DNA of 22,320 bases from IMG/VR virus record IMGVR_UViG_3300035698_000917, positions 1 through 22,320 of that record. The stretch is one strand, 5' to 3'. This document shows positions 3 to 21,093 of this stretch, piece by piece. Positions within the stretch are counted from its first letter, which is position 1. Each line of letters begins with the position of its first letter. Position numbers and translations under genes: made by a program. The notes beneath the pieces were generated by a model. That model ran no database searches. It worked only from the letters and a program-made list of their open reading frames with translations, and was not told the origin of the DNA. This DNA is from a virus.

Positions 3-1124
3 TTCCCAGGCAACGGTGGTACTTTGTATTACGGCACAGTGTTGAGCACAGGCACAGTGAGTCAGTTGAATTACAATTGGAGCGGTGGATATATTTTAGA
101 CTCAGGCAGGAGTGACCGAGTGATCGTTAACTTCTATGGTTACATCACCATACCAGATACAGGTTCACAAGCCATACAATTCTATCTGTATGCTGATGAC
201 GGCGTTTACATGAAGATAGACGGCACAGTTGTTATCAATGATTGGAATGAACAGGGAGGTGCAACTTGGAATTATGTTTCCACGGACCAAACACTCACGG
301 GTGGTCAAACTTATTACATAGATGCTTGGTGGTATGAGAACGGTGGCGGTGCCTCTTTCAAATTATATTGGGACCAATCGGGTTCAGTAGCCTTGGTACC
401 CAGCTCAGCATATTCAACCACTGCACCTACACCCACTTCGGGTATCACTTCATCACAACAAACTATTGTAAACAATGCTAAGGCTAAAACAGGAGAAGGA
501 ATTTATATAGATCAAGCAGGTGATAATTTAGATTTAGATATAATACAAGACGGTGATAATAATTTAATTATAGGTACAGACTTATCTACAAACGCTCAAA
601 TTATAGGTGATGATAATACAATTAATATTCTACAAGAAAATGGAGGTAATGTATTAGGTTTAGATTTAAATGGTAACAACAATTTACTTAATATAGACCA
701 AAACCAAAATCAAACAGCATTAATTAATATAGTTGGGGATAGTAATGATGTGGCGTTAAATCAAATGCCGTATCTATCAGCAGGTGAACACTTTGCTGAT
801 GTAAATATACAAGGTGACAGCAATACTTTAAACCTCACTCAACAAGGTGTAGGAGATAAAATTTTATTTGTAGAAACAGGAAGTAATAATTCTGTTACTG
901 TAAATCAAAAAGATAATGGAGAACATTTTTTAGATATTAAACTTACCAATAATCATACAGTAGGTGTAGTACAAGAAGGTTCTGGCAATCATAGTGGCAC
1001 AATAGATTTAAGTGGCAATACAAGTTCAGTAGATTTACATCAACAAGGCAGTTCCAATCAAAACTATATTTTAGAACAACAATGTGCTTCAACAAGCTGT
1101 TCAACAACGGTGGTACAACAATGA
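3..1124 (+). CDS. PA14-domain plus curlin-repeat adhesin-like protein (5' partial)
   Basis: The reading frame is open to the left edge, so the N-terminus is missing; a TTG at 24 is internal. The first ~135 visible residues look like a PA14/GLEYA-type beta-sandwich (FYLYADDGVYMKIDG, then TYYIDAWWYENGGGASFKLYW), a fold often used for carbohydrate or surface binding. After a Thr/Pro/Ser linker (about residues 138-150 counted from the TTG), the rest is made of roughly seven units of ~22 residues of the form G-x-x-N, hydrophobic strand, Q, hydrophobic strand (GDDNTINILQ, GDSNTLNLTQ, GSNNSVTVNQ), as in curlin (CsgA/CsgB) repeats. The tail has two cysteines (CASTSC). It likely forms a beta-solenoid or amyloid-like surface or tail adhesin. 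GC drops from about 50% in the PA14 part to about 30% in the repeats, which suggests a domain fusion. The stop overlaps the start of the cyclase gene (ATGA). Domain calls are by eye; the role is inferred. Confidence 0.75.
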   Translation, partial: FPGNGGTLYYGTVLSTGTVSQLNYNWSGGYILDSGRSDRVIVNFYGYITIPDTGSQAIQFYLYADDGVYMKIDGTVVINDWNEQGGATWNYVSTDQTLTGGQTYYIDAWWYENGGGASFKLYWDQSGSVALVPSSAYSTTAPTPTSGITSSQQTIVNNAKAKTGEGIYIDQAGDNLDLDIIQDGDNNLIIGTDLSTNAQIIGDDNTINILQENGGNVLGLDLNGNNNLLNIDQNQNQTALINIVGDSNDVALNQMPYLSAGEHFADVNIQGDSNTLNLTQQGVGDKILFVETGSNNSVTVNQKDNGEHFLDIKLTNNHTVGVVQEGSGNHSGTIDLSGNTSSVDLHQQGSSNQNYILEQQCASTSCSTTVVQQ

Positions 1125-2971
1125 TAAAAAAAATATTAACACACTGGACATTTGCTTTTGTAACTTTATTTGTTTTAACATTTATAGGGTTAAAAGACCC
1201 ACAAGTAAAAGAAATATTACGATTAAAGTCCTTTGACTTATTACTTCAATCAGAAAAGAAAGAAGTATCAATAGATATAGGTGTTATAACCATTGATGAA
1301 AAGGCCATAGAAAAGTATGGACAATGGCCTTGGAAAAGAGATGTACTTGCCAATATCATTACTAAATTAAGAGAAGCTGAAGTTGGTATTATAGTGTTAC
1401 CTATTCTATTCGCAGAAAAAGATAGACTAGGTGGTGACGCTGTATTAGCAGAAACTATACGTGGTAATGGTGTTGTAATTGCTCAGACAGGAACCAATCA
1501 AATCAATAAAAATTCAGTACCAAGGGGGGTAGCAAAAATAGGTGACCCTCTGCCGTTCTTATTCGAATGGAAAGGTATGTTAGGACCAATTCCTATACTC
1601 GGAGAGAACGCTGATGGAGTAGGTGTAGTCAATACAGCACCAGAAATAGATGGTGTGATTAGGCGCATACCTTTGATAATGAAAATAGGTAATGAAACTT
1701 ATCCAGCGATGGCCATTGAAGTAATACGAGTAGCTACTCAAGCACCAAGTTATCAAATTAAATCAGGTCCTAGTGGTATTATTGCTATGAGAGTTCCTGG
1801 GTTTTCTACAATTGAAACTGATCCAAATGCTCGTATCTGGTTGAGATGGAATAAAGAGTATGAAACTATTAGTTTAGCAGATATAGACCAAGTTGGCAAG
1901 TGGAAAGGTCGTACAGTTATTGTTGCACCTACAGCAGAAGGATTAAATTCTATTGTTGCTACACCATTGGGCGAAAAGTATATGTATGAGATAACTGCCA
2001 ACACACTTCAAACAGTATTAGATGGTAAACAAATCAATAGATATGATTATAGTTTATTTTTAGAATTACTTATTTCGGTTGTAGTAGGATTGTTAATTGT
2101 AATACTTACAAGATTTACTCCTTATTGGTTTGTAGGTATTAAAATGATAGGTATGTATGTGGCAACTATCTATGCTTCGTATTATCTATTCCACAAATAT
2201 TCTATATTATCAGACGCAAGTTGGATTATTATTACTATAACAATTGTAGGATTTCATTCTGTATTTAATAGATTTATTTTAGAGTTTCAATTAAAACAAC
2301 AAATTAAGAAACAGTTTGAAAAATATTTAGACCCACGACAAGTTGCCATACTTCAAAAAAATCCTGAAAAAATAAGATTAGGTGGAGAAAGAAAAGAAAT
2401 GACTTTTTTATTTATGGACATTGTAGGGTTTACTCCAATATCTGAATACTATAAAAACAAAGATGATCCTGAAGGACTTGTCAAATTGATTAATGAATTT
2501 CTAAATGAGGTAAGTAAAATAATATTGAAAAATGGTGGAATGATAGATAAATATATGGGAGATTGTTGTATGGCGGTATTTGGAGCTCCTTTAGATATGA
2601 AAAACCACGCTGAAATGGCAATAAAATCTTGTATAGAGATAGAAAAAAAAGTAAAAGAACTTAAACTACTATATAAGGAAAGAGGATTGCCCGATATTAA
2701 TGTTGGCACAGGTGTGAATACAGGTATTGCTATTGTAGGTAATATGGGTTCAGAAACTAGATTTGACTACTCGGTAATTGGTGACGCTGTTAATTTGGCT
2801 GCTAGATTAGAAGCAACTGCTTGTAGGGGGGACTATAAAGATTATCCAACAATATATTCTAGTCATACTATGAAACAATTACCTAAAACAATTAAAAGTA
2901 AAAAGATTGGTGAAATAAAAGTTAAAGGTAAAGAAGAATTAATTAAGATTTACACTATAAAGGAGGACTAA
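1121..2971 (+). CDS. CHASE2-domain class III adenylate cyclase, membrane-bound
   Basis: Predicted 616-residue receptor cyclase making cAMP from ATP. It has an N-terminal membrane helix (residues ~7-24), a CHASE2-type extracytoplasmic sensor (~25-305, including the typical VITIDEKAIEKYGQWPW), three membrane helices (~312-385), a short linker, and a catalytic domain (~425-616). All catalytic residues are visible: metal-binding D433 (MDIVGFT) and D481 (DKYMGD), adenine-specifying K477 and D549 (DYSVIGD), and N558/R562 (NLAARLE). K plus D favours ATP over GTP. The ATG at 1121 is chosen because it overlaps the adhesin stop as ATGA and gives a normal signal-anchor N-terminus; the upstream ATG at 1082 would add 13 residues inside the adhesin gene. 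The coupling suggests the pair is made together. A cyclase of this type is unexpected in a phage. The family call is firm; the in vivo role is unknown. Confidence 0.93.
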   Translation: MIKKILTHWTFAFVTLFVLTFIGLKDPQVKEILRLKSFDLLLQSEKKEVSIDIGVITIDEKAIEKYGQWPWKRDVLANIITKLREAEVGIIVLPILFAEKDRLGGDAVLAETIRGNGVVIAQTGTNQINKNSVPRGVAKIGDPLPFLFEWKGMLGPIPILGENADGVGVVNTAPEIDGVIRRIPLIMKIGNETYPAMAIEVIRVATQAPSYQIKSGPSGIIAMRVPGFSTIETDPNARIWLRWNKEYETISLADIDQVGKWKGRTVIVAPTAEGLNSIVATPLGEKYMYEITANTLQTVLDGKQINRYDYSLFLELLISVVVGLLIVILTRFTPYWFVGIKMIGMYVATIYASYYLFHKYSILSDASWIIITITIVGFHSVFNRFILEFQLKQQIKKQFEKYLDPRQVAILQKNPEKIRLGGERKEMTFLFMDIVGFTPISEYYKNKDDPEGLVKLINEFLNEVSKIILKNGGMIDKYMGDCCMAVFGAPLDMKNHAEMAIKSCIEIEKKVKELKLLYKERGLPDINVGTGVNTGIAIVGNMGSETRFDYSVIGDAVNLAARLEATACRGDYKDYPTIYSSHTMKQLPKTIKSKKIGEIKVKGKEELIKIYTIKED

Positions 2972-2972
2972 T

Positions 2973-3083
2973 ATGTACTATGAAATACTTAATATGATAT
3001 TATGGGGAATAGTTATGCCATCGTGGATATCTATTTCGTTTTACCGATTTTGTATGAAGCTGAATCCATACTCGTTTAAATAA
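2973..3083 (+). CDS. Small putative membrane peptide (36 aa)
   Basis: A 36-codon frame beginning MYYEILNMILWGIVMPSWIS, with one central hydrophobic stretch (about residues 5-25) and a short basic tail, so it could be a single-span membrane peptide. A perfect AGGAGG (2961-2966) lies six bases before the ATG, one of the best ribosome binding sites in the window. The ATG is one base after the cyclase stop, so it would be translated from the same message. I do not recognise a family. A link to cyclase activity or localisation is only a guess from position. Confidence 0.6.
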   Translation: MYYEILNMILWGIVMPSWISISFYRFCMKLNPYSFK

Positions 3084-9711: not shown

Positions 9712-10099
9712 ACAACATCACACTGATATTAAATTTAAGGTAATAGAAATTCCTTTAAAGGAAATTCGTATTATACCACCATTAGATTGGATAGAAAAAC
9801 GTAGTAAAGAATTTGATTATCAAACTAGTTTTGATAAACACGGAATGTTATGGCCAATAGTAGTTACTTCACACAAGCCACAGTGGGTAGTAGATAGAAT
9901 ATTACCTAAAAATCCTCACCATAAAGATATTACAGGAAACTTACTTCCTTATTTATATGTACACGTTGGAAATAAGAGGGTACTGTATGCTAATAAAATG
10001 GGTTATGATAGAATTGAAGGATATTTGGTCACAGAACATAAAGATAAAATAATGATAAAAAACTTACAACATATAGACCACAAAGAAATACCTAAATGA
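9692..10099 (+). CDS. ParB/sulfiredoxin-like domain protein
   Basis: A 135-residue protein. The order of motifs resembles the ParB N-terminal/sulfiredoxin fold: IEIPLKEIRIIPP (start strand), FDKHGMLWPIVV (47-58, as in 'hG...PI.V'), then GNKRVLYANKMGYDRIEGYL (93-112, as in 'G.+R..A....G...I...L'). Members include DNA-binding CTPases, nucleases and ATP-dependent enzymes, so activity cannot be assigned; no C-terminal HTH is present, making chromosome partition unlikely. The ATG at 9692 overlaps the RuvC-like gene; the TTG at 9662 in the same frame is less likely. Its TGA overlaps the start of the first glycan gene. Confidence 0.55.
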   Translation: MKILRAKQHHTDIKFKVIEIPLKEIRIIPPLDWIEKRSKEFDYQTSFDKHGMLWPIVVTSHKPQWVVDRILPKNPHHKDITGNLLPYLYVHVGNKRVLYANKMGYDRIEGYLVTEHKDKIMIKNLQHIDHKEIPK

Positions 10100-11148
10100 A
10101 ATTAACTATTATCAACAATTCAGGTGTCTGTAAAGATATATACAATAGTTTTTCAAATTTGTTATCTTCGGGAAAGAAAAAAGCGCAAGAAAGTAAAGTC
10201 TATAAAATTAATATCAGACATCATAAAGAAGCTAATGGAAATGTAAGTTTTTTTGAGGATCCAATTTTGACTTATACCGACTTATGGAATATTCAAACCT
10301 CAGACGCAATCGTAATATTCGGTACTTGGGGTAGTGTTGACCAGAATAGAATATGGCATCCTACCGATAATAAAAGAAGACAAGCCTGGCTTAATAATGT
10401 TAATGGATTTTTTACCAATCTAGCAAAATCTTATGGTATTAAAATAATTGTAATAGAAACAGGAACCCTATGCAGAAGTAGAGTTGCTTTCATTGGAGGT
10501 CACTGGAAGGAAAAATCTCCTAGATATTATAGAATGGGGCTTAATCATTGGACTTATGGACTTGCCAAATTCATTAACCCAAAAGGAAGAAAAAAAAGAG
10601 TAGCTAAGTTTAGAAATAGTTTTAGAAATAAAGAATTTGAAAACCAAGTTGATAATTTTGAATGGAAAAATAATAAAGAGGGAAAAATAGTAATTTTAAC
10701 AGGATTGGAAAATGATCCTACATCCACAATGCTAATACCGGATTTTGTAAAATCAAGTGTAAATGAGATAAGAAAACATACAGATAGAACAATTGCTCTT
10801 AAACCACATCCAAGTAGCGAGTATATACCTGATAAGGAATTAGGATTAGAAATAATAAAAAAAGAAATTTCTTTAAAGGATATATCTTCTGATATGTATT
10901 GTGCTGTGTTAGACAATAGTACATCCATATTTGAACTAATATTTTTGGGTATACCTACATTTACACAAAAGCATAGCTTTGGTTATAACTTAGGCAATAA
11001 TGATTTATCTAAAATAAATAATATACATTATGCTACAAGAGAAGTAATAAATGATTGGATTGTTGAAATGTCTTGGACAGAATTTACAGAACAAGAATAT
11101 GCTTCCGCAGTAATGCCTGGGTATGTAAAGGAATTGCTAGATGAATAA
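10096..11148 (+). CDS. Putative GT-B-type glycosyltransferase / surface polysaccharide protein (family member 1 of 3)
   Basis: A 350-residue protein. The N-terminal half has Rossmann-like strands (DAIVIFGTWGSV; IKIIVIETGTL). The C-terminal half has K236-P-H-P (ALKPHPSSEY) and N274-S-T-S-I-F-E-L followed by FLGIP, a pattern of capsule- and CDP-glycerol-type transferases in which the S/T-rich helix binds the donor phosphate. Near the C-terminus is W-x-EFTEQE. The same layout is seen in the genes at 18818 and 19620, so I treat the three as one family. Donor and acceptor are unknown. The ATG overlaps the upstream TGA; the stop overlaps the oxygenase gene by eight bases. Confidence 0.55.
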   Translation: MKLTIINNSGVCKDIYNSFSNLLSSGKKKAQESKVYKINIRHHKEANGNVSFFEDPILTYTDLWNIQTSDAIVIFGTWGSVDQNRIWHPTDNKRRQAWLNNVNGFFTNLAKSYGIKIIVIETGTLCRSRVAFIGGHWKEKSPRYYRMGLNHWTYGLAKFINPKGRKKRVAKFRNSFRNKEFENQVDNFEWKNNKEGKIVILTGLENDPTSTMLIPDFVKSSVNEIRKHTDRTIALKPHPSSEYIPDKELGLEIIKKEISLKDISSDMYCAVLDNSTSIFELIFLGIPTFTQKHSFGYNLGNNDLSKINNIHYATREVINDWIVEMSWTEFTEQEYASAVMPGYVKELLDE

Positions 11149-11818
11149 AATATTGAATATTACAGACACGCAACTGTTGGTAAAAGAAGGATATAATCCT
11201 CATTTATATATGAATGAATTTATTAATAATGAATATTACAAAAAATTATTAAATGAATTTCCTAATGATGATCTATTTACAGAAGAGCAACCAAAAACCC
11301 GAAAATTAGGCCAAAGACCTCATTGCCGTAGGTTTATGTGTATAACAACAGAAAAAGAAAGTCCTTATTTTGATGATTACATTATAAATCAAACGAAATT
11401 GCCAATGATATGGCAAGAGATATTAACAGAAATAAAAGGTGAAGAATATAGAAAATGGATTTGTGATATGTTACAAATTAAAGATTTCAGAATAAGATTT
11501 GATTTTCATAGAACAGAAAGTGGACTAGATGTTTCTCCTCACGTAGATAGTGTAGGCAAGTATGCCTCCCACCTGTTGTACTTTATGCCTGAAGAATGGA
11601 ATGACGATAATGGAGGTTCTACCATTTTCTATAGTGGTAAAACAATAGATAAATTAAATCCAGAACCTACTGATTTTAAACAATCAGTTTTATATCCGGT
11701 GATAGGAAATTCATCACTACTATTTAAAAATGTTCCAGATGGCTGGCACGGCATAACAGAAGTTAAAGCAAACAATATGTCCAGACAATTATGTAATGTA
11801 GTAATATTAAAAAAATGA
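11141..11818 (+). CDS. 2OG-Fe(II) dioxygenase (prolyl-4-hydroxylase-like)
   Basis: A 225-residue protein that likely uses 2-oxoglutarate and oxygen to hydroxylate a substrate. The iron-binding triad is visible: H134-V-D136 (SPHVDSVGKYASHLLYF), distal H203 (DGWHGITEV) and the 2-oxoglutarate-binding R215 (MSRQLCNVV). The HVD...H...R order and the GGSTIFY strand are standard. The substrate could be a protein, sugar or nucleobase; its place among glycan genes favours a sugar or surface substrate. Start overlaps the upstream gene and the stop overlaps the FkbM gene (ATGA). Confidence 0.85.
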   Translation: MNKILNITDTQLLVKEGYNPHLYMNEFINNEYYKKLLNEFPNDDLFTEEQPKTRKLGQRPHCRRFMCITTEKESPYFDDYIINQTKLPMIWQEILTEIKGEEYRKWICDMLQIKDFRIRFDFHRTESGLDVSPHVDSVGKYASHLLYFMPEEWNDDNGGSTIFYSGKTIDKLNPEPTDFKQSVLYPVIGNSSLLFKNVPDGWHGITEVKANNMSRQLCNVVILKK

Positions 11819-12537
11819 AACAAACAATATATAATCAATCAGGTGCAAAAGTAGATTATGAAATACCTTACGAAGAAGTGGGTAATATAAAATTTCATAA
11901 TGTTGGTAGAGTTATAGATAAAAGAATAAAATCATTTTATACTAAAGAACCAAAAACATTGCAGTGGATTGATTCATTTGAACCAAACAGTATGGTTGTT
12001 GATGTTGGAGCTAACATTGGAGTATATTCTTTATATGCAGGTAAATTAGGACATAAAGTTTATGCCTTTGAACCACAAGCATTAAACTTTGCCGAATTAT
12101 ATACAAACATTTATTTGAACAAATTAGCAGATAATATAATGGGGTACAACATTGCTTTAAACAACAAAAATTCAATAGAATATTTAAGCCTATTATCAAT
12201 GGTGCCTGGCCAATCTCATAATGATTTTGCTTTAGATATAGAAAATCAATTGAAACAAGGTTGTGTAGGATTTACATTAGACCACCTTGTCAATACGAAA
12301 GTAATACCTCAACCAAAATATTTAAAAATAGATGTAGATGGTTTAGAAAAATCTGTAGTGGAAGGCAGTATAGAAACTATCAAAAATTGTAAATCTGTTT
12401 TAATTGAATTAACAGGAAATAAAAATGAAAAAGAAACACTAACAATGATTGAGAGTTGTGGTTTTAAATTAGATGATAGTATGACCTATAAATTAAGTAA
12501 GACAGAAACAAATTATATATTAAGGAGTAGCATATAA
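11815..12537 (+). CDS. FkbM-family SAM-dependent methyltransferase
   Basis: A 240-residue protein with SAM-binding motif I at 61-69 (VVDVGANIG), the acidic end of strand 2 in FEP (85-87), and the FkbM signature KIDVDGLE (171-178) followed by IELTG. FkbM enzymes O-methylate sugars and small molecules, commonly in glycan clusters, fitting the cassette. The motif set is complete. Its start overlaps the oxygenase stop by four bases (ATGA), and the asnB-type gene starts one base after its stop. Confidence 0.9.
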   Translation: MKQTIYNQSGAKVDYEIPYEEVGNIKFHNVGRVIDKRIKSFYTKEPKTLQWIDSFEPNSMVVDVGANIGVYSLYAGKLGHKVYAFEPQALNFAELYTNIYLNKLADNIMGYNIALNNKNSIEYLSLLSMVPGQSHNDFALDIENQLKQGCVGFTLDHLVNTKVIPQPKYLKIDVDGLEKSVVEGSIETIKNCKSVLIELTGNKNEKETLTMIESCGFKLDDSMTYKLSKTETNYILRSSI

Positions 12538-12538
12538 T

Positions 12539-14362
12539 ATGTGTGCAATTCACGGTATAATAGGTAATAGAGAATCTATCATTGAACATATGATACAGGC
12601 AGCTCATCATAGGGGGCCTGATGGCAATGGTAAATGGAAAGATGATGATGTAACACTTGGCCATAACTTATTATCAATTGTTGATACAGAAACCAATTCA
12701 CAACAACCTTGGATACACGAAGATTTAGTTTTGACTTATAATGGGGAGATATATAATTATAAAGAATTACAAACAGAACTTAATTATGAATTTACCACAA
12801 ATGCAGACACGGAAGTTTTAGCAGTAGGATTAAAAAAATTTGGAATAGAATTTATTGAAAAATTGGATGGTATGTTTGCCTTTGCTTGTTATAATAGAAC
12901 AACAAAAGAACTTATATTAGCTAGAGATAGTAGTGGATGTAAACCTCTGTATTATGGTCACAAAGAAGGAATGCTCCACTTTTCATCCGAAATTAAAAGT
13001 TTGTTATCAGCAGGATTTGACAGAAAAATTTGTAAACAAGCATTTAAACATTACTACAACCAAGGATACAATTCAGGATATTTAACTTTATTTGAAGGTA
13101 TCAAAAAATTAGTCCCAGGCCAAATTAATGTAATAAATGTTAAGACAAATGAAAAAAAATATTACAACATAAACAATAAAAAAATACCATTAATAACTGG
13201 TAATCCACAAGAACTTGCTGAAGAATTAAGAAATAGAATACATAAGGCTGTTAAAATGACCTTAATGGGTCGTAGAGAGATTGGTTTGTTTTTAAGTGGT
13301 GGTATAGACAGTACATCTATTTTATATGAGATGATACAATCTGGAGTTAAACCAAGCACATTTACATCAAACTTTTCTACAACATTACCAGGTAGTATGT
13401 TGAATGAGGATTCAGAAGTTGCCAAACAATATTGTGATGAATTGCAAATAGAAAATAATAGACTTCATCAAAATGAAGCAGATTTTGTTAATGCAATGGA
13501 TGATACATTTTATGCTTTAGAAGAACCTAAACAAGGCAAAAGCTTTCCTACTTACTACAATACAAACAAGTTCCTGGCAAGTAAAGGTGTTACAGTAACT
13601 TTGAGTGGAGATGGTGGAGATGAATTGTTGATAGGATATAAACATCACGGTTTAGGTCATTGGACAACTAAAGTAAATTCATTAAGAATGAATCATAGAG
13701 GATTAAAAAATGAAGAATTACAAATAACCCTAGATGAACAAATACAATATTTGAACAAATGGTTGCCACAAGGAGGAATACAAGGTGATAATATAAACGA
13801 TATGATGTACATTGAATCTTTAAATTCTTTATGTGAGGATTTTTTAATTAGAAATGATAAACTAGGTATGCACTTTAGTATGGAGGCTAGATTTCCTCTT
13901 ATGTGTAACATTGTTAAAGATTTTGCAAGAAGTATTCCATCTTATATTAAAGCTGATATGGCCACATATGTTGCAGGAGATAAGATAACTAAGGTGGGTA
14001 AACGAATTATACATAAGGCTTTATTTAAACAAGCATATAGAAATCGATTGCCTGATTATATATTAAATAAAAACAAATCTGGATGGAGATTTCCTACAGA
14101 TGAAATATTAATAGGAACACAAGATCATCCAGGAAAAAATGACAGTGTATTAAGATTATATATAATTGAAACTTTAAAAGACAAAGAGGTTAGAGAATTA
14201 TTTGAATTAGATGATAACATAATTAACAATATATTTTTAAACAATGAAACATATGTTCCAGAAACAGGTAGTAAATACCCTCCTGGAGTATTAAAACAAA
14301 AAGAACTATTTACCATACTGAATTTTGCTATATGGAAAAAAGTATATAAAATGAGTATATAA
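12539..14362 (+). CDS. asnB: Asparagine synthetase-type, glutamine-hydrolysing amidotransferase
   Basis: 607 residues, the usual size. The N-terminal glutaminase (class II) domain starts with nucleophile C2 (MCAIHGIIG), with RGPDG (25-29) and N68-G-E (YNGEIYNY). The synthetase domain has the PP-loop S253-GGIDST and DGGDE. It would form asparagine from aspartate using glutamine and ATP. In polysaccharide clusters AsnB-type enzymes can instead amidate uronic acids, which fits the position, so the substrate is open. AGGAG (12523-12527) lies eleven bases ahead of the ATG. No truncation or missing key residue was noticed. Confidence 0.9.
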   Translation: MCAIHGIIGNRESIIEHMIQAAHHRGPDGNGKWKDDDVTLGHNLLSIVDTETNSQQPWIHEDLVLTYNGEIYNYKELQTELNYEFTTNADTEVLAVGLKKFGIEFIEKLDGMFAFACYNRTTKELILARDSSGCKPLYYGHKEGMLHFSSEIKSLLSAGFDRKICKQAFKHYYNQGYNSGYLTLFEGIKKLVPGQINVINVKTNEKKYYNINNKKIPLITGNPQELAEELRNRIHKAVKMTLMGRREIGLFLSGGIDSTSILYEMIQSGVKPSTFTSNFSTTLPGSMLNEDSEVAKQYCDELQIENNRLHQNEADFVNAMDDTFYALEEPKQGKSFPTYYNTNKFLASKGVTVTLSGDGGDELLIGYKHHGLGHWTTKVNSLRMNHRGLKNEELQITLDEQIQYLNKWLPQGGIQGDNINDMMYIESLNSLCEDFLIRNDKLGMHFSMEARFPLMCNIVKDFARSIPSYIKADMATYVAGDKITKVGKRIIHKALFKQAYRNRLPDYILNKNKSGWRFPTDEILIGTQDHPGKNDSVLRLYIIETLKDKEVRELFELDDNIINNIFLNNETYVPETGSKYPPGVLKQKELFTILNFAIWKKVYKMSI

Positions 14363-14377
14363 CACAAGAGGATAACA

Positions 14378-14908
14378 ATGAAGCATTTAGGTGGACATAA
14401 AGGAAGAACACATATTGATAAAGGTATATTGCAATTTGCAAAAGAGGTATTAGACTGTAAATCAGTCGTAGATATTGGTTGTGGACCTGGTGGTCAGGTA
14501 TACGAAGCACTAAATTTAGGTATGAATGCTATGGGAGTTGATGGAGATACTACTTTAAAATGGGAAAAACCAATACATTTTATACGACACGATTTTACAG
14601 AATCGTCATTAGAACATAAAGAAGTTGATATGGTGTGGTGTTGTGAATTTATAGAACACGTAGAAGAAAAGTATATTCCTAATTATATGTCTATAATGAA
14701 ATCAGCTAAATATGTTTTTGTTACATATTCAGAACCAGGAAAACCAGGACATCATCACGTAAATTGTCAACCAAAACAATATTGGATAGATATATTTAAT
14801 GAAAATGGTTTTGATTATGCAGAAAATTTAACAGTAACATCAAAAGAATATAGTACAATGGTACGAGAATTTTGGAACGAAAACGGTTTAATATTTAAAA
14901 GGAGATAA
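14378..14908 (+). CDS. Class I SAM-dependent methyltransferase
   Basis: A compact 176-residue enzyme. Motif I is VVDIGCGPGG (30-39), motif II region MGVDGD (52-57), and the motif IV/V-like VDMVWCCEFIEHVEE (83-97) matches the common 'D.v.c.evieHv' pattern of small-molecule methyltransferases. PGHHHVNCQP follows. The substrate is unknown; the neighbours suggest a sugar. AGAGG (14367-14371) precedes the ATG. Confidence 0.88.
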   Translation: MKHLGGHKGRTHIDKGILQFAKEVLDCKSVVDIGCGPGGQVYEALNLGMNAMGVDGDTTLKWEKPIHFIRHDFTESSLEHKEVDMVWCCEFIEHVEEKYIPNYMSIMKSAKYVFVTYSEPGKPGHHHVNCQPKQYWIDIFNENGFDYAENLTVTSKEYSTMVREFWNENGLIFKRR

Positions 14909-14909
14909 T

Positions 14910-16067
14910 ATGAAATATCCATTAGCGTGTGATACGTGGGACAATAGAGAAGTTGAAGCAATACAAGAAGTAGTCAAAACAGGTCGTTATACTATGGGGC
15001 CTTATGTAAAGAAATTTGAAAAAGAATTTTGCGATTATTTTAAATGCAATGACGCAGTTATGGTTAACAGCGGATCATCAGCTAATCTGTTGATGTTAGC
15101 TACGCTAGCACTAAAACATAAATTAAAAGGAGATATTATAGTACCTGCTGTTAGTTGGTCAACAACATATTATCCTTTACAACAATATGGTTTTAAATTA
15201 AACTTTGTAGATATTGATAAAAGTACCTTAAATATTGATCCTAGTAAAATAGAAAAAGCAATAACTAAGGACACGTGTGCTATTTTTGCTGTAAATTTAT
15301 TAGGCAATTCTTGTGAATATAAAAAGATTAATGAAATTGCCGAGAAACACAATCTTATGGTAATAGAAGACAATTGCGAAAGTTTAGGTGCAATATCAGA
15401 TACGGATATTTACAATGGAGTTGTGGGACATATGGGTAGTTATTCGTTCTTCTTCAGCCACCATTTACAAACAATGGAAGGTGGTATGATTGCTTGTAAA
15501 AGCAAAGATGACGCCGACTTTATTAGATCGTTAAGAGCTCACGGTTGGTGTAGGGATTTACCAGATGATAATACCATTTACAAAAAATCTGGAGATACCT
15601 TCGTAGATAGTTTCACTTTTATTACACCTGGATATAGTGTAAGACCACTAGAAATGAGTGGTGCAATTGGTAGTGTACAACTTAAAAAATGGCCCGAGAT
15701 GAGAGAACAAAGAGTTAAGAACGCAGAATACTTTAAACAAAAATTTAAAGACCTGCCAGATGTACAATTACAAGAAGAAGTAGGCAATTCTAGTTGGTTC
15801 GGGTTTTCTATGGTATTCAATGGCAATTTAAGTGGTAGAAGAGCTAAGATTGTAGAGAAATTTAAAGAGAATGAAATAGAAAGTAGACCAATTGTTGCAG
15901 GTAATTTTATGAAGAATCCTGTAATAAAATATTTAGACTATATAGATAACAAAGATTACAATGTTGCAGATTACATACACGACAATGGTTTGTTTATAGG
16001 TAATGATGTGAGAGATTTAAAAGATAATATAGATATGGTTTACAACATAATAAAGGATATAAAATGA
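14910..16067 (+). CDS. DegT/StrS-fold PLP enzyme, ColD-like GDP-4-keto-6-deoxymannose 3-dehydrase (putative)
   Basis: A 385-residue DegT/DnrJ/EryC1/StrS family protein. The SGSSANLL (55-62) and IEDNCESLG motifs bind the cofactor phosphate and ring. In aminotransferases a lysine sits seven residues before the first G of the EGG motif; here that position is H184 (SFFFSHHLQTMEGGM) and no Lys is nearby. Replacement of the lysine by His is the mark of ColD and RfbH, which remove the C3 hydroxyl of 4-keto-6-deoxy sugars using PMP. RfbH also needs an iron-sulfur cysteine cluster, which I do not see, so ColD is the better match. The next gene makes the expected substrate. Expected product: GDP-4-keto-3,6-dideoxymannose. 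No ColC-like reductase lies in the window. Function inferred from H184 and context. Confidence 0.75.
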   Translation: MKYPLACDTWDNREVEAIQEVVKTGRYTMGPYVKKFEKEFCDYFKCNDAVMVNSGSSANLLMLATLALKHKLKGDIIVPAVSWSTTYYPLQQYGFKLNFVDIDKSTLNIDPSKIEKAITKDTCAIFAVNLLGNSCEYKKINEIAEKHNLMVIEDNCESLGAISDTDIYNGVVGHMGSYSFFFSHHLQTMEGGMIACKSKDDADFIRSLRAHGWCRDLPDDNTIYKKSGDTFVDSFTFITPGYSVRPLEMSGAIGSVQLKKWPEMREQRVKNAEYFKQKFKDLPDVQLQEEVGNSSWFGFSMVFNGNLSGRRAKIVEKFKENEIESRPIVAGNFMKNPVIKYLDYIDNKDYNVADYIHDNGLFIGNDVRDLKDNIDMVYNIIKDIK

Positions 16068-17068
16068 AAACAGCATTAATAACAGGCATAACAGGACAAG
16101 ACGGATGTTATCTAGCTAAATCTTTATTGAATAAGGGTTACAAAGTATTTGGTGGACAGAGAAGAAGTACCACCAACAAATACTGGAGATTAGATGAAAT
16201 GGGTATTACAGACGATATAGAGTTTGTTGAATTGGATGTAATAGATCAATCAAACATTAGAAGAGCAATAGAAAAATCAGAACCAGATGTTGTTTATAAT
16301 TTAGCTGCTCAATCCTTTGTTGGACTATCCTTTGAACAACCTGAACTTGCTACACTCATTGACGCAATGGGAGTATTGAGAATGATAGAAAGTATAAAAC
16401 AAGTTAATAAAGATATTAAGTTTTATCAAGCTTCTACTAGTGAGTTATACGGTAAAGTATTTGAAACTCCTCAAACAGAAACAACGAAGTTTTGGCCTAG
16501 AAGTCCTTACGGTGTGGCAAAACTATATGGACATCACATAACAATTAATTATAGAGAGGCCTATGGTATGTTTGCTTCTACAGGTATCTTATTTAACCAC
16601 GAAAGTCCAATGAGAGGTGAAGATTTTGTCACTAGAAAAATCTCAAAAGGACTTGCTCTATGGAAAAAAGAACAAAGACCAATAGTGTTAGGAAATTTAA
16701 CTGCTAAAAGAGATTGGGGTCACGCTGAAGATTTTGTTGAAGGTATGCAACTTATTATGAATCATCATAAACCAGATGATTTTGTTTTGGCAACAGGAGA
16801 AATACATACGGTAAAAGAATTTTTAGAGATGTCTTTAGATTATCTAGGAGTTAAATATTACTTTAAAGATGATGAGTGTTTTGAACAAGACACAAACATA
16901 AAAATATCAACTACCGATAAAATACATTTTAGACCTGCTGAAGTAGATATACTACAAGGTGACGCAACTAAAGCTAAAACACAACTAGGTTGGACACATA
17001 AACATACAGCTCATAGTTTAATGGTAGATATGGTGGATGCTGATATGCGAAGATATTATGCACAATAA
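16064..17068 (+). CDS. gmd: GDP-mannose 4,6-dehydratase
   Basis: A 334-residue short-chain dehydrogenase/reductase that converts GDP-D-mannose to GDP-4-keto-6-deoxymannose, using bound NADP. The GxxGxxG dinucleotide motif is at residues 8-14 (GITGQDG), and catalytic T125/E127 (STSELYG) and Y149/K153 (YGVAK) have the same spacing as in E. coli Gmd (T132, E134, Y156, K160). NHESPMRGEDFVTRKI is characteristic of Gmd. It overlaps the ColD-like gene (ATGA), arguing that the two act in series. Confidence 0.95.
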   Translation: MKTALITGITGQDGCYLAKSLLNKGYKVFGGQRRSTTNKYWRLDEMGITDDIEFVELDVIDQSNIRRAIEKSEPDVVYNLAAQSFVGLSFEQPELATLIDAMGVLRMIESIKQVNKDIKFYQASTSELYGKVFETPQTETTKFWPRSPYGVAKLYGHHITINYREAYGMFASTGILFNHESPMRGEDFVTRKISKGLALWKKEQRPIVLGNLTAKRDWGHAEDFVEGMQLIMNHHKPDDFVLATGEIHTVKEFLEMSLDYLGVKYYFKDDECFEQDTNIKISTTDKIHFRPAEVDILQGDATKAKTQLGWTHKHTAHSLMVDMVDADMRRYYAQ

Positions 17069-17792
17069 AATATTTGTAACAACATTTAATAAAAGACTTT
17101 TTGATGATTATGCCAAAAAGATGATACAATCTTACAAAGAAACAGATCAAATATTACCTTTGTACGTTTTTGTTGAAGACGATATCAATACTTATCCTAA
17201 AGAAAAGAATGTACAGTATATTAATTTATTTGAAAAGGAACCTGACTTGAAAAAGTTTGTTGATAGAAATAAGCATAAGAAGGTAGAAAAATTTAGTTTT
17301 GACGCAGTAAGATTTTCTTATAAAGTATATGCTCAAAATGCAGCTAGACAATATGGTGAAAAGATATATTATGTAGATAGTGATTCGGTATTTGTATCAA
17401 AAATACCTGAAGAATGGTTTGATGAATGTTTACCTGATGATACTCTTATAACTTTCTATGATAGACCAAGTCAATATACAGAAACAGGTTTTTTGGCTTT
17501 TAATAATACTCATTTGTTAATAGATGAGTTTTTTGAAAAATATACAGAGTATTATAGAAAAAATACAATTTTTGATTTGAAAGCTTGGACAGACTGTCAC
17601 ACTTTAGACGCAACACGAAGAATTTGTAAATTTAAAAATAATTATAAAGAGAAAGCTTTAGGAGATGGAAAACCAGCCCACATTATGGCAAGAGATACCT
17701 TTATAAACAAATATATAGATCACAGAAAAGGTGATCGTAAAACACAGGCTAACAGTCCCGAGTGGATTCAGGCTAAAATGAAAAGGAGTTAA
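17058..17792 (+). CDS. Putative GT-A-type glycosyltransferase
   Basis: A 244-residue protein starting at ATG 17058, which overlaps the gmd stop by 11 bases (ATG 17037 in the same frame is possible but less likely). N-terminal strand (KIFVTTFNKRLFDDY), a helix with FSFDAVRFSYKVYA, then D107-S-D109 (YYVDSDSVFVSK), a DxD motif that binds the nucleotide-sugar metal. The tail includes YIDHRKGDRK, basic. The overall pattern is that of small nucleotide-sugar transferases; donor and acceptor are unknown. Confidence 0.65.
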   Translation: MHNKIFVTTFNKRLFDDYAKKMIQSYKETDQILPLYVFVEDDINTYPKEKNVQYINLFEKEPDLKKFVDRNKHKKVEKFSFDAVRFSYKVYAQNAARQYGEKIYYVDSDSVFVSKIPEEWFDECLPDDTLITFYDRPSQYTETGFLAFNNTHLLIDEFFEKYTEYYRKNTIFDLKAWTDCHTLDATRRICKFKNNYKEKALGDGKPAHIMARDTFINKYIDHRKGDRKTQANSPEWIQAKMKRS

Positions 17793-17793
17793 T

Positions 17794-18144
17794 ATGAAAG
17801 CAGGAAAAATTTGGGGGCAAACAGAACTAATACACGCTAATGGAGTATTAGAGTTTCACCGAATAGAATTTAAATCTGGCATACAGTGTTCTAAACATCT
17901 ACACAAACATAAATGGAATGGATTTTATGTAGAATCGGGTAAGATGTTAGTTAGAGTATGGCAACAAGGTAAACAAGATGGTCTTGTGGATGAAACTGTA
18001 TTAAACGCAGGTGACTTTACACAAGTTAGACCTGGATTACTACATCAATTTGAAGGTATAGATGATGGTGTGGCATTTGAATTGTATTGGGCAGAATTTG
18101 ATCATAATGATATTGAAAGAGAAACACAAGGCAAAAAAGTATAG
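17794..18144 (+). CDS. Cupin-domain protein
   Basis: A 116-residue single-domain cupin. Motif 1 has H35, H37 and E47 (SKHLHKHKWNGFYVESGKM) and motif 2 has H84 (PGLLHQFEG), so the metal ligands appear complete. This type resembles the C-terminal domain of mannose-6-phosphate isomerase/GDP-mannose pyrophosphorylase, which would fit mannose supply for Gmd, but a sugar epimerase or isomerase of other kind is equally possible. AGGAG ahead of the ATG is clear (AAAAGGAGTTAATATG). Confidence 0.85.
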   Translation: MKAGKIWGQTELIHANGVLEFHRIEFKSGIQCSKHLHKHKWNGFYVESGKMLVRVWQQGKQDGLVDETVLNAGDFTQVRPGLLHQFEGIDDGVAFELYWAEFDHNDIERETQGKKV

Positions 18145-18146
18145 AT

Positions 18147-18818
18147 ATGATCCAAGTCTTTATAGGTTACGATAGCAAAGAAAAGATAGCATATCACGTA
18201 TTATCCGAAAGCATATTACGAAACAGTACAAAGCCTGTAGCTATTACACCAATATATTTACCAAATATTAAAGATGATTTTGTAAGAGAAAGAAACAATC
18301 TATCGTCTACTGAATTTTCTTTTAGTAGATTTATTATACCACATCTTATGAACTACCAAGGTTGGGCTTTGTTTATGGATTGCGATATGTTAATGAAAAC
18401 GGATATCGCCGATCTATGGAGATTACGAGATGACAAATACGCAGTACAAGTATGTAAACACGATTACATACCTAAAGAAGAAACCAAATTTTTAGGTCAA
18501 GTACAAACAAAATACCAAAAGAAAAACTGGTCTTCTTTTATGTTAATGAATTGTAAGAAGTGTACAACATTAACACCAGAATATGTTAACAAAGCGAGTG
18601 GGTTAGAACTACATCAATTTAAATGGTTAGAGAGTGAAGAACTTATTGGACAATTACCATTAGAATGGAATTGGTTAGTTGGTGAATATGATAAGAAAGA
18701 AGACGTAAAGAATGTTCATTTTACAAAAGGTGGCCCCTATTTTGAAAAATATAGTAATAGTGATTACGCAGATGAATGGTTTAATGTTTATACCAATATG
18801 GTTAAAATTGAAATGTAA
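18147..18818 (+). CDS. GT8-like glycosyltransferase
   Basis: A 223-residue GT-A-fold transferase. It opens with IQVFIGYDSKEKIAYHVL, has D78-C-D80 (WALFMDCDML), the DxD metal site, and H191 with GGP (HFTKGGPYF), the third metal ligand region typical of this family. It starts two bases after the cupin stop, and its stop overlaps the next gene (TAATG). It is among the better-supported transferases in the cassette, although the sugar is unknown. Confidence 0.85.
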   Translation: MIQVFIGYDSKEKIAYHVLSESILRNSTKPVAITPIYLPNIKDDFVRERNNLSSTEFSFSRFIIPHLMNYQGWALFMDCDMLMKTDIADLWRLRDDKYAVQVCKHDYIPKEETKFLGQVQTKYQKKNWSSFMLMNCKKCTTLTPEYVNKASGLELHQFKWLESEELIGQLPLEWNWLVGEYDKKEDVKNVHFTKGGPYFEKYSNSDYADEWFNVYTNMVKIEM

Positions 18819-19639
18819 TGATACAAGGATTTGAAACAAAAGAAAACACAGATATTGTTATCCGATCCTTTGTAAAAGGAGTTAAAGGGGTATTACATAA
18901 AAAAGTTAGAAAAGTAGACCAGTACGAACAAACAGAATGGCCAACATTTAAAGATTTCACTCTACCCATAGCTGTATTTGGAGTATTACGTGGCACAGGT
19001 AATTTAATAAAGAACTCTATGGTTATTCCACAAGACTTTTATTACTTTGATCACGCTTATATTTTAGGCAATAGACACTTAAATAGTGGTTTTGTAGGTG
19101 ATAAGGTTTATAGATTAACAAAGAACGATTACTCATTAACATACATTGATAAACTTACTAAAGAAGATGAGGAAAGAATAGAAAAATATAAAGAACATAT
19201 AACTATAAAACCTTGGAAAAAAGAAGGTAAGTATATTCTGGTTTGCGAACCATCTGATCACGCAAAAAAATATTATAATGCAAGTGATTGGTTAGAACAT
19301 ACATTGGATAAATTAAAAAGTTATACCAAAAAAGAAATACTTGTTAGAAAAAAAACAACACCAGATAGTTTTAAAAAACAACTAGAAGAAGCTTTTGCTT
19401 GTGTTACCTTTCAATCTACGGCTTGCATTGAATCAGTTTTAAATGGAGTGCCTAGTTTCTGTGATGGCATTTCTTGTGGAGTACCTGTATCTAATATGAT
19501 ATTATCCGAAATAGAAAATCCTAATTACTCGGATAAGAGAGAAGAATGGATTAACAGTTTATTGGCCAATCAATTTACTATGACAGAAATAGGAAATGGT
19601 GTGGCGTGGAGAAAAGTTAGTGGCTATAATAACTCATAA
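18818..19639 (+). CDS. Putative GT-B-type glycosyltransferase / surface polysaccharide protein (family member 2 of 3)
   Basis: A 273-residue protein similar in layout to the genes at 10096 and 19620: PIAVFGVLRGTGN, then a YYFDHAYI segment, a Rossmann-like strand KYILVCEPSD, helix WLEHTLDKLK, and F198-QSTACIESVLNGVPSF, the counterpart of NSTSIFELIFLGIP in member 1. It ends with NQFTMTEIGNGVAW, a C-terminal signature shared with member 3 (HQFTIKEMENGTAY). Start overlaps the upstream TAA. Confidence 0.55.
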   Translation: MIQGFETKENTDIVIRSFVKGVKGVLHKKVRKVDQYEQTEWPTFKDFTLPIAVFGVLRGTGNLIKNSMVIPQDFYYFDHAYILGNRHLNSGFVGDKVYRLTKNDYSLTYIDKLTKEDEERIEKYKEHITIKPWKKEGKYILVCEPSDHAKKYYNASDWLEHTLDKLKSYTKKEILVRKKTTPDSFKKQLEEAFACVTFQSTACIESVLNGVPSFCDGISCGVPVSNMILSEIENPNYSDKREEWINSLLANQFTMTEIGNGVAWRKVSGYNNS

Positions 19640-20423
19640 ATTAGCTTGGGATAAATGTTTATCCCACCAAATATGGCCTGCCATAGAAAAAGGTTGGAAA
19701 GATGAAGGTAAAGATGTACACTTCTTTTGGGGATTAGCAGGTAATAATATAAAAGAAATAAATGATTGCAAGAAGAATGGAGAAGAATGGTGGTTTGTTG
19801 ATGTTGGGTATTTTACTGAACAGATTACCAGATATCCTGAACCTAGTATTAATAACTATGATAACACTTATTTTAGAATAGTTAAAGGAGGATTACATAC
19901 AACAGAATTTTCAGAAGGTAATACAGTAAGAATAAATGATCTTTTTAACAAAGGTATTGATGTTGAATTTAAGGGTTGGTACACAGGTGATACAAAACAT
20001 ATACTTTTAGCTCCATCATCACAAATGGTAACACATTTTATAAATGGTATTTCACAAGAAGACTGGATAAAACAAGTTACAGCCGACATTAGAGTATATA
20101 CAGATAGGCCTATAAAGGTGCGAAATAAACCTAGACCTAATAATGAATTTTGGAATACAGATATTAAAGATGATCTAAAAAACTGCCATTGTTTGGTAAC
20201 CAATCTATCGTTATCAGCTATAGACGCAATCTTAAATAAGGTTCCTATAATCACACACAAAAAGAATGTATGTTCTCCACTTTCGACCAATATTGCCAAT
20301 ATAGAAAACATTTTTAGAATTAATGCAAAAACTATAACACAATGGATGAGAAGTGTAGTTGACCACCAATTCACAATTAAAGAGATGGAGAATGGCACCG
20401 CCTATAAATATTTAAATGATTAA
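19620..20423 (+). CDS. Putative GT-B-type glycosyltransferase / surface polysaccharide protein (family member 3 of 3)
   Basis: A 267-residue protein from GTG 19620, preferred because GGAGA (19608-19612) lies seven bases upstream and the overlap with member 2 is short; ATG 19596 would give 275 residues. It shares the family layout: HFFWGLAGNN, WWFVDVGYF, RPIKVRNKPRP, then NLSLSAIDAILNKVP (195-209) and HQFTIKEMENGTAY at the end. It overlaps both neighbours by a few bases. Tandem arrangement with member 2 suggests duplication followed by strong divergence. Confidence 0.55.
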   Translation: MAIITHKLAWDKCLSHQIWPAIEKGWKDEGKDVHFFWGLAGNNIKEINDCKKNGEEWWFVDVGYFTEQITRYPEPSINNYDNTYFRIVKGGLHTTEFSEGNTVRINDLFNKGIDVEFKGWYTGDTKHILLAPSSQMVTHFINGISQEDWIKQVTADIRVYTDRPIKVRNKPRPNNEFWNTDIKDDLKNCHCLVTNLSLSAIDAILNKVPIITHKKNVCSPLSTNIANIENIFRINAKTITQWMRSVVDHQFTIKEMENGTAYKYLND

Positions 20424-21093
20424 TGTAAACTGTGTATATTACGGAAGCAAATACAAGCCAATTTATGTGCAAAATTTGTACAATATGGTTAACAGGCATT
20501 TAACAGTACCTTATCAATTCATATGTTGGACAGACCACGTTAATCTAAAAGATTTGGTAGATGGTGATATATTATATAAAATATTTAGAAGACACGATTT
20601 TGATGGTTGGTGGAATAAATTACAATTATTTGCTCCTGAATCAAAATTGAATGGTGTAAATTTCTATTTAGATTTAGATGTGGTTATATTACAAAATATA
20701 GATTGTTTTGTTAATTGGGGAGATGATGAAACTTTTGGAGTTATTAGAGATTTTGGTCAACCAAATATGTTTTTTAATTCGAGTATAATGAAATGGAATA
20801 ATTCAATAGCTTCAAATAAGATATGGGTTCCATATATTGCCGATAGGCCAAAATTTAGAAGGCTGCAAGGTGACCAAAATGTGGTTACAGACTTAATGAA
20901 AGGTGACCCCCATATTAAGGTATATCCAGATGAATGGACACAATCATACAAGTGGTTTGATAGAAGTCAAAAGAGATTTCATAAGAATAAATGGACCTTT
21001 GAAAAAGCTCCAGAAGCCAAAATAGCAGTATTTCACGGTTTACCAAATCCACACGAATCAAAAGAAGAATGGGTTGTAAATAACTGGAAATAG
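20416..21093 (+). CDS. Putative GT-A-type glycosyltransferase
   Basis: A 225-residue protein. It starts INVNCVYYGSKYKPIYVQNL, has W65-W-N-K, then D86-L-D88 (NFYLDLDVVIL), a DxD metal-binding motif, QGDQNVV (151-157) and the C-terminal H207 (AVFHGLPNPHE), a pattern of small GT-A enzymes where a late His completes the metal site. It begins inside the upstream gene (8-base overlap). It is the last gene of the long run that begins at 3906. Confidence 0.75.
   Translation: MINVNCVYYGSKYKPIYVQNLYNMVNRHLTVPYQFICWTDHVNLKDLVDGDILYKIFRRHDFDGWWNKLQLFAPESKLNGVNFYLDLDVVILQNIDCFVNWGDDETFGVIRDFGQPNMFFNSSIMKWNNSIASNKIWVPYIADRPKFRRLQGDQNVVTDLMKGDPHIKVYPDEWTQSYKWFDRSQKRFHKNKWTFEKAPEAKIAVFHGLPNPHESKEEWVVNNWK

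Follow-up and report, generated by a model that had tools for sequence, protein, structure and literature searches.

A phage curli module with a head-exchanging curlin and a predicted CHASE2 adenylate cyclase

A curlin gene overlapping a cyclase gene at the start of the window

The window analysed here is a whole IMG/VR record of 22,320 bases, and it opens with two overlapping plus-strand genes. The upstream reading frame (3-1124) joins a PA14-type head to a curlin-repeat tail, as identified by Pfam and by full-length homologues in the viral loci L001, L006 and L007. The contig begins inside this gene, which we call curlin2, so that the frame is open at its 5' end and the start codon and signal peptide are absent. 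The head domain (63-380, plus strand; residues 21-126; alignment A5) matches the PA14 profile with an E-value of 2.9e-9 and 37.3 bits against a cut-off of 24, and it has an invariant DDG motif at residues 65-67. Its nearest relative in the PDB is the extracytoplasmic anti-sigma factor RsgI3 (6qe7, E 3e-14); the PA14 domain of the biofilm adhesin Lap (6m8m, E 2e-4) is also related. The tail (498-1124, plus strand) matches the Pfam curlin repeat Curlin_rpt with an E-value of 8e-10 and 38.9 bits against a cut-off of 20.7, and in L068 the homologous tail is modelled by AlphaFold as a series of regular beta strands.

The downstream gene (1121-2971, plus strand) encodes a predicted CHASE2 class III adenylate cyclase of 616 residues (Pfam; phrog_35576, E 2e-244), whose start codon overlaps the stop codon of curlin2 in the sequence ATGA (1121-1124). 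A CHASE2 extracytoplasmic sensor domain (1172-2092; residues 18-324) scores 152 bits against a cut-off of 26.3 (E 3e-44), and it is followed by the catalytic domain (2393-2959; residues 425-613; Pfam Guanylate_cyc, E 1e-19) with the metal-binding D433 and D481, the base-specifying K477, and S551, N558 and R562. A first-pass annotation had described the PA14-curlin frame and its ATGA junction with the cyclase, both of which are confirmed by the sequence and by Pfam, and had credited the enzyme with every catalytic residue. The latter statement is nearly exact: D433, K477, D481, N558 and R562 are all in place, and Ser551 replaces the Thr or Asp that occupies the second base-specifying position in characterised class III cyclases. 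CyaB (3r5g, E 9e-34), the closest cyclase of solved structure, has Thr there, as does a divergent lineage. D433, K477, D481 and R562 are invariant in all 83 aligned phage cyclases, the window's counted, and N558 and S551 are each present in 82. A lysine of the K477 type is an established adenylate determinant in class III cyclases, and from it we infer a specificity for adenylate rather than guanylate. Only the Melnitz cyclase (L002, 7998-10049) lacks N558; it has Ser at that position and Asp at the position of Ser551, and its activity is possibly altered or lost. The Ser in place of Asn558 implies that cAMP may not be required in every member of the module. The complete genomes of the phage isolates HTVC008M and Melnitz yielded no recognisable cNMP-binding protein, so that any putative cAMP receptor would be the host's.

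The phage-like character claimed for the genome is borne out by T4-like genes 3' of the cyclase, namely a primase, NrdA, NrdB, a RuvC-like resolvase and a sigma-like gene (Pfam, PHROGs), which place the window in a pelagimyophage, T4-like setting. We considered whether the first 3 kb might be an assembly chimera, a concern raised with the original claim. Six viral loci, L004-L009, are collinear with the window, and five of these (L005-L009) run without interruption through the cyclase into the replication genes; the cyclase region of L004 is 98.5% identical to that of the window. A chimera is thereby ruled out. A close cellular origin of the cyclase was likewise rejected: the only three matches on genome contigs are all to phage-like contigs within MAGs, and the best full-length plasmid-borne cyclases have about 30% identity to the window's. 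On these three contigs (L084, L085 and L086, filed under MAGs of Flavobacteriaceae and Pirellulales) the phage cyclase is 47-70% identical to that of the window; L085 and L086 have further module genes as well, and the cyclase of L085 is broken into two reading frames. They are probably misbinned phage DNA.

Two other parts of the window deserve mention. A 36-residue reading frame lies directly 3' of the cyclase (2973-3083, plus strand), and its membership in the module, suggested in the first-pass annotation, is putative: the frame exists, but its only two relatives, both weak (E 0.003-0.015), lie between curlin1 and FecR in L060 and L063, not 3' of the cyclase. Further on (10096-21093), the translations show a long run of apparent sugar or glycan genes, including asparagine-synthase-like, DegT-like, GDP-mannose-dehydratase-like, glycosyltransferase-like and methyltransferase genes. 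Judging by these translations, the run is probably a surface-modification island.

A published module with exchanged heads

The cyclase has 292 relatives in IMG/VR, and about 30 of the viral loci retrieved hold the full order CsgF, CsgG, curlin1, FecR, curlin2, CHASE2 cyclase. HTVC008M has the same order (csgF, csgG, curlin, FecR-domain protein, second curlin, cyclase), as does Melnitz, and every complete module has two curlin genes. The window retains only the last two genes, a second curlin-repeat gene (3-1124) followed by the cyclase (1121-2971). Its near relatives supply the upstream part: L006 has FecR, and L007 has CsgF, CsgG, curlin1 and FecR. The link to csgG and csgF suggested in the first-pass annotation holds, both genes lying upstream in the modules of HTVC008M, Melnitz and L007. 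On gene content and order, the window belongs to a T4-like pelagimyophage, and its first 3 kb is the 3' end of a phage-borne module for curli (type VIII secretion). With this module, marine phages that infect SAR11-type bacteria appear to produce amyloid fibres at the surface and a cAMP-making membrane sensor.

This module is not new. Wittmers et al. 2022 (PMC9599517) described a pelagiphage curli (T8SS) module with the order CsgF-CsgG-CsgA/B-FecR-second curlin-adenylate cyclase in podo- and myo-type pelagiphages, and csgGF in pelagiphages had been reported earlier by Zaragoza-Solas et al. 2020 (PMC7029224). In HTVC008M, the annotated adenylate/guanylyl cyclase already adjoins the same curlin gene. 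Thus the coupling of curlin and cyclase, put forward in the first-pass annotation as the novelty, is conserved in HTVC008M, Melnitz and the roughly 30 complete loci but had been recorded before. The window does not differ in any essential way from the published module: gene content and order agree, second curlin then cyclase, in a T4-like background. Its pair is a real feature and a further instance of that module.

The spacing between curlin2 and the cyclase varies. A curlin gene lies upstream of the cyclase in 68 relatives; the two genes overlap in 25 of the 68 and are within 30 bp in 15 more (40/68 in total). Every locus without an upstream curlin ends at a nearby contig edge. In some loci unrelated genes, judged from their translations, have been inserted between the two (L017, L041, L068, L080 and L083), including a ferredoxin-like gene, a large protein of 1028 residues and, in L083, a relative of the window's 7223-7876 gene. 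The 2.4 kb upstream of the cyclase in L064 matches the L068 insertion.

Across the relatives, the C-terminal curlin tail of curlin2 is conserved and has about 225-245 residues. The N-terminal part varies: it may be of the PA14 type, an unrelated head (head B, about 200-230 residues) or missing altogether, and there are also short forms of 112-119 residues. Head B has no convincing Pfam family. Its structure model (pLDDT 69) gave only weak Foldseek matches, to the IFT52 N-terminal domain and to ThuA-like proteins, and a Rossmann-like fold is a lead only. In L008 (6647-7901) curlin2 is split into two reading frames by a frameshift or a sequencing error, and FecR and the cyclase are intact.

Comparison of the window with L007 places an inferred recombination boundary between the exchanged head and the curlin tail at 400-450 (plus strand). 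DNA identity is 95.5% over positions 1-400, 72% over 401-450 and 61.7% over 451-1124, and the G+C content of the window is 45.6% over 1-445, 30.8% over 446-1124 and 30.6% over the remainder. At the protein level the heads of the two are 98% identical, the tails 53% and the cyclases 78%. Other pairs of loci show similar mosaics. L006 and L080 share 99% identity in the tail and 100% in FecR, but only 51% in the head; L001 and L080 share 93% in the head and 60% in the tail; and the heads of L021 and L029 are unrelated, though their FecR and cyclase are 89% identical. In five divergent loci (L116-L120) the PA14 head is 75-76% identical to the window's, and FecR, the tail and the cyclase only 33-44%; the L120 contig carries T4-like tail and replication genes (PHROGs). 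Wherever the contig permits the comparison, loci found through the head sequence have the head fused to curlin. As judged from segment identities and G+C content, curlin2 heads are exchanged between phage modules with the tail conserved.

FecR as a candidate sensor partner

The adhesin had been proposed as the partner that supplies or senses a ligand for the cyclase. The two genes are indeed coupled, but in bacteria the usual neighbour of a CHASE2 cyclase is FecR. In ten annotated bacterial CHASE2-cyclase loci, a small, plasmid-derived and mostly alphaproteobacterial sample, FecR lies no more than one gene from the cyclase in nine (L088-L093, L095, L097 and L098), and in six of these it is directly upstream on the same strand; the tenth, L094, has no FecR near the cyclase. 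In the phage relatives FecR is two genes upstream of the cyclase, a position lost past the contig end in the window. The proximity in nine of the ten bacterial loci makes FecR a more probable sensory partner of CHASE2 than the adhesin. In the BiofilmReg operon of Burkholderia, FecR/LysM is paired with a CHASE2 histidine kinase (PMC5192318), and Sinorhizobium CHASE2 cyclases raise cAMP upon sensing an external protein via an outer-membrane protein (PMC7529298, PMC13001267). Two of the bacterial FecR partners (L092, 2099-5764; L090, 3907-5874) have extra C-terminal domains, TPR repeats and, weakly, a transferrin-binding-protein-type barrel, which suggests that such partners reach towards the outer membrane.

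The C-terminus of the phage FecR contains a curlin-like strand, N-x-I-x-I-x-Q, in which I365, I367 and Q369 are invariant in alignment A4. Scored with a curlin-strand profile that we built ourselves from a motif, the FecR tails had a median above the scores of all 245 unrelated reading-frame tails; individual tails vary widely, and in the most distant lineage the tail has no more than a loose resemblance to curlin. The strand suggests that phage FecR may be able to touch curlin. A structure model of FecR was too poor for use (pLDDT 36).

The bacterial FecR-CHASE2 pairs (the cyclases on mostly alphaproteobacterial plasmids and the Burkholderia kinase) resemble the phage arrangement in that a FecR gene adjoins a CHASE2 gene; in contrast to them, the phage has a curlin between FecR and the cyclase, and csgF, csgG and a curlin before. 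With bacterial curli (csgA/B/F/G) the phage module has in common the CsgG and CsgF Pfam domains, curlin repeats and signal-peptide-like N-termini, but it has no CsgE (PMC9599517), a linked cyclase and, in many members, the extra curlin2 head. Neither FecR nor a cyclase was found beside the two alphaproteobacterial curli loci that we read (L099 and L100). Given these loci and the bacterial FecR-CHASE2 adjacency, the phage module appears to unite a curli cluster with a FecR-CHASE2 pair.

The main text of PMC9599517 names neither PA14 nor CHASE, and we did not find head exchange or the curlin-like tail of FecR in that paper. The combination of a PA14 domain, curli and phage was not found in the limited collection of literature searched. 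The literature consulted yielded no earlier account of the exchangeable curlin2 heads, of the proximity of FecR to bacterial CHASE2 cyclases or of the curlin-like strand of phage FecR.

A monitored fibre and its alternatives

The explanation that we favour, and consider somewhat more probable than not, is that a CHASE2 cyclase producing cAMP inside the host monitors, by way of FecR, a curli fibre whose adhesive head can be swapped. It builds on the gene order, domains, residue conservation and head exchange read from the sequences. Beyond these, the curlins would be exported via CsgG/CsgF and would make up fibres on the infected cell or decorate them, with the curlin2 head setting the binding specificity of the fibre, for which a glycan is probable. 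FecR in the periplasm, possibly paired with curlin through its curlin-like tail, would report the status of the fibre or of export through contact with the CHASE2 domain, and the cyclase would then make cAMP that acts on a host target. Two published observations weigh on this scheme. Melnitz cultures show no clumping (PMC9004378), which counts against a fibre, and subunits are believed to pass through CsgG unfolded (PMC3521004), so that a folded curlin2 head may be problematic. A more specific version, possible rather than probable, is a viral outside-to-inside cAMP relay in which a curli fibre on the infected cell, with heads (PA14 lectin-like, Rossmann-like or none) that spread by recombination among otherwise dissimilar phage modules, acts through a curlin-tailed FecR that switches the CHASE2 cyclase.

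The absence of clumping would be in keeping with a phage that needed only the outer-membrane CsgG/CsgF pore, for uptake or lysis timing, with the curlins plugging or gating it and the cyclase signalling its state. A pore-only role was proposed in PMC9004378 (lysis timing, in Melnitz) and in PMC7029224. A mere plug, however, would need neither the two curlin genes of all complete modules nor heads that are swapped over conserved tails, and we regard this reading as unlikely. Head exchange suggests selection on the binding target and so speaks for a true extracellular adhesive fibre rather than a bare pore. Such a fibre might also mask or block receptors rather than join cells, the swapped heads serving superinfection control; this is compatible with the monitored fibre and differs from it in the fibre's purpose. 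Superinfection defence has been proposed for phage curli (PMC9599517), and the cassette-like exchange of heads is in keeping with it, but in the loci found through the head sequence the head is joined to curlin wherever the contig permits, nor did a connection with tail fibres or receptors come to light. On balance we think this purpose rather doubtful, though less so than the bare pore. The ATGA overlap of the window, and the overlap or short gap in more than half of the loci with an upstream curlin, would agree with an adhesin that is itself the ligand, or ligand carrier, of CHASE2, FecR being incidental. That reading appears quite improbable: the spacing is variable with unrelated genes in between, CHASE2 is conserved while the heads change, and the bacterial neighbour of the cyclase is FecR, in loci without curlin2.

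Curli modules of phages occur widely in the ocean. The FecR-CHASE2 pairing of the monitored fibre gives the cyclase a testable sensor partner and, together with head exchange, turns the phage curli genes into specific questions of binding, export and cAMP. Of the whole module, the curlin with its swapped heads is what deserves follow-up.
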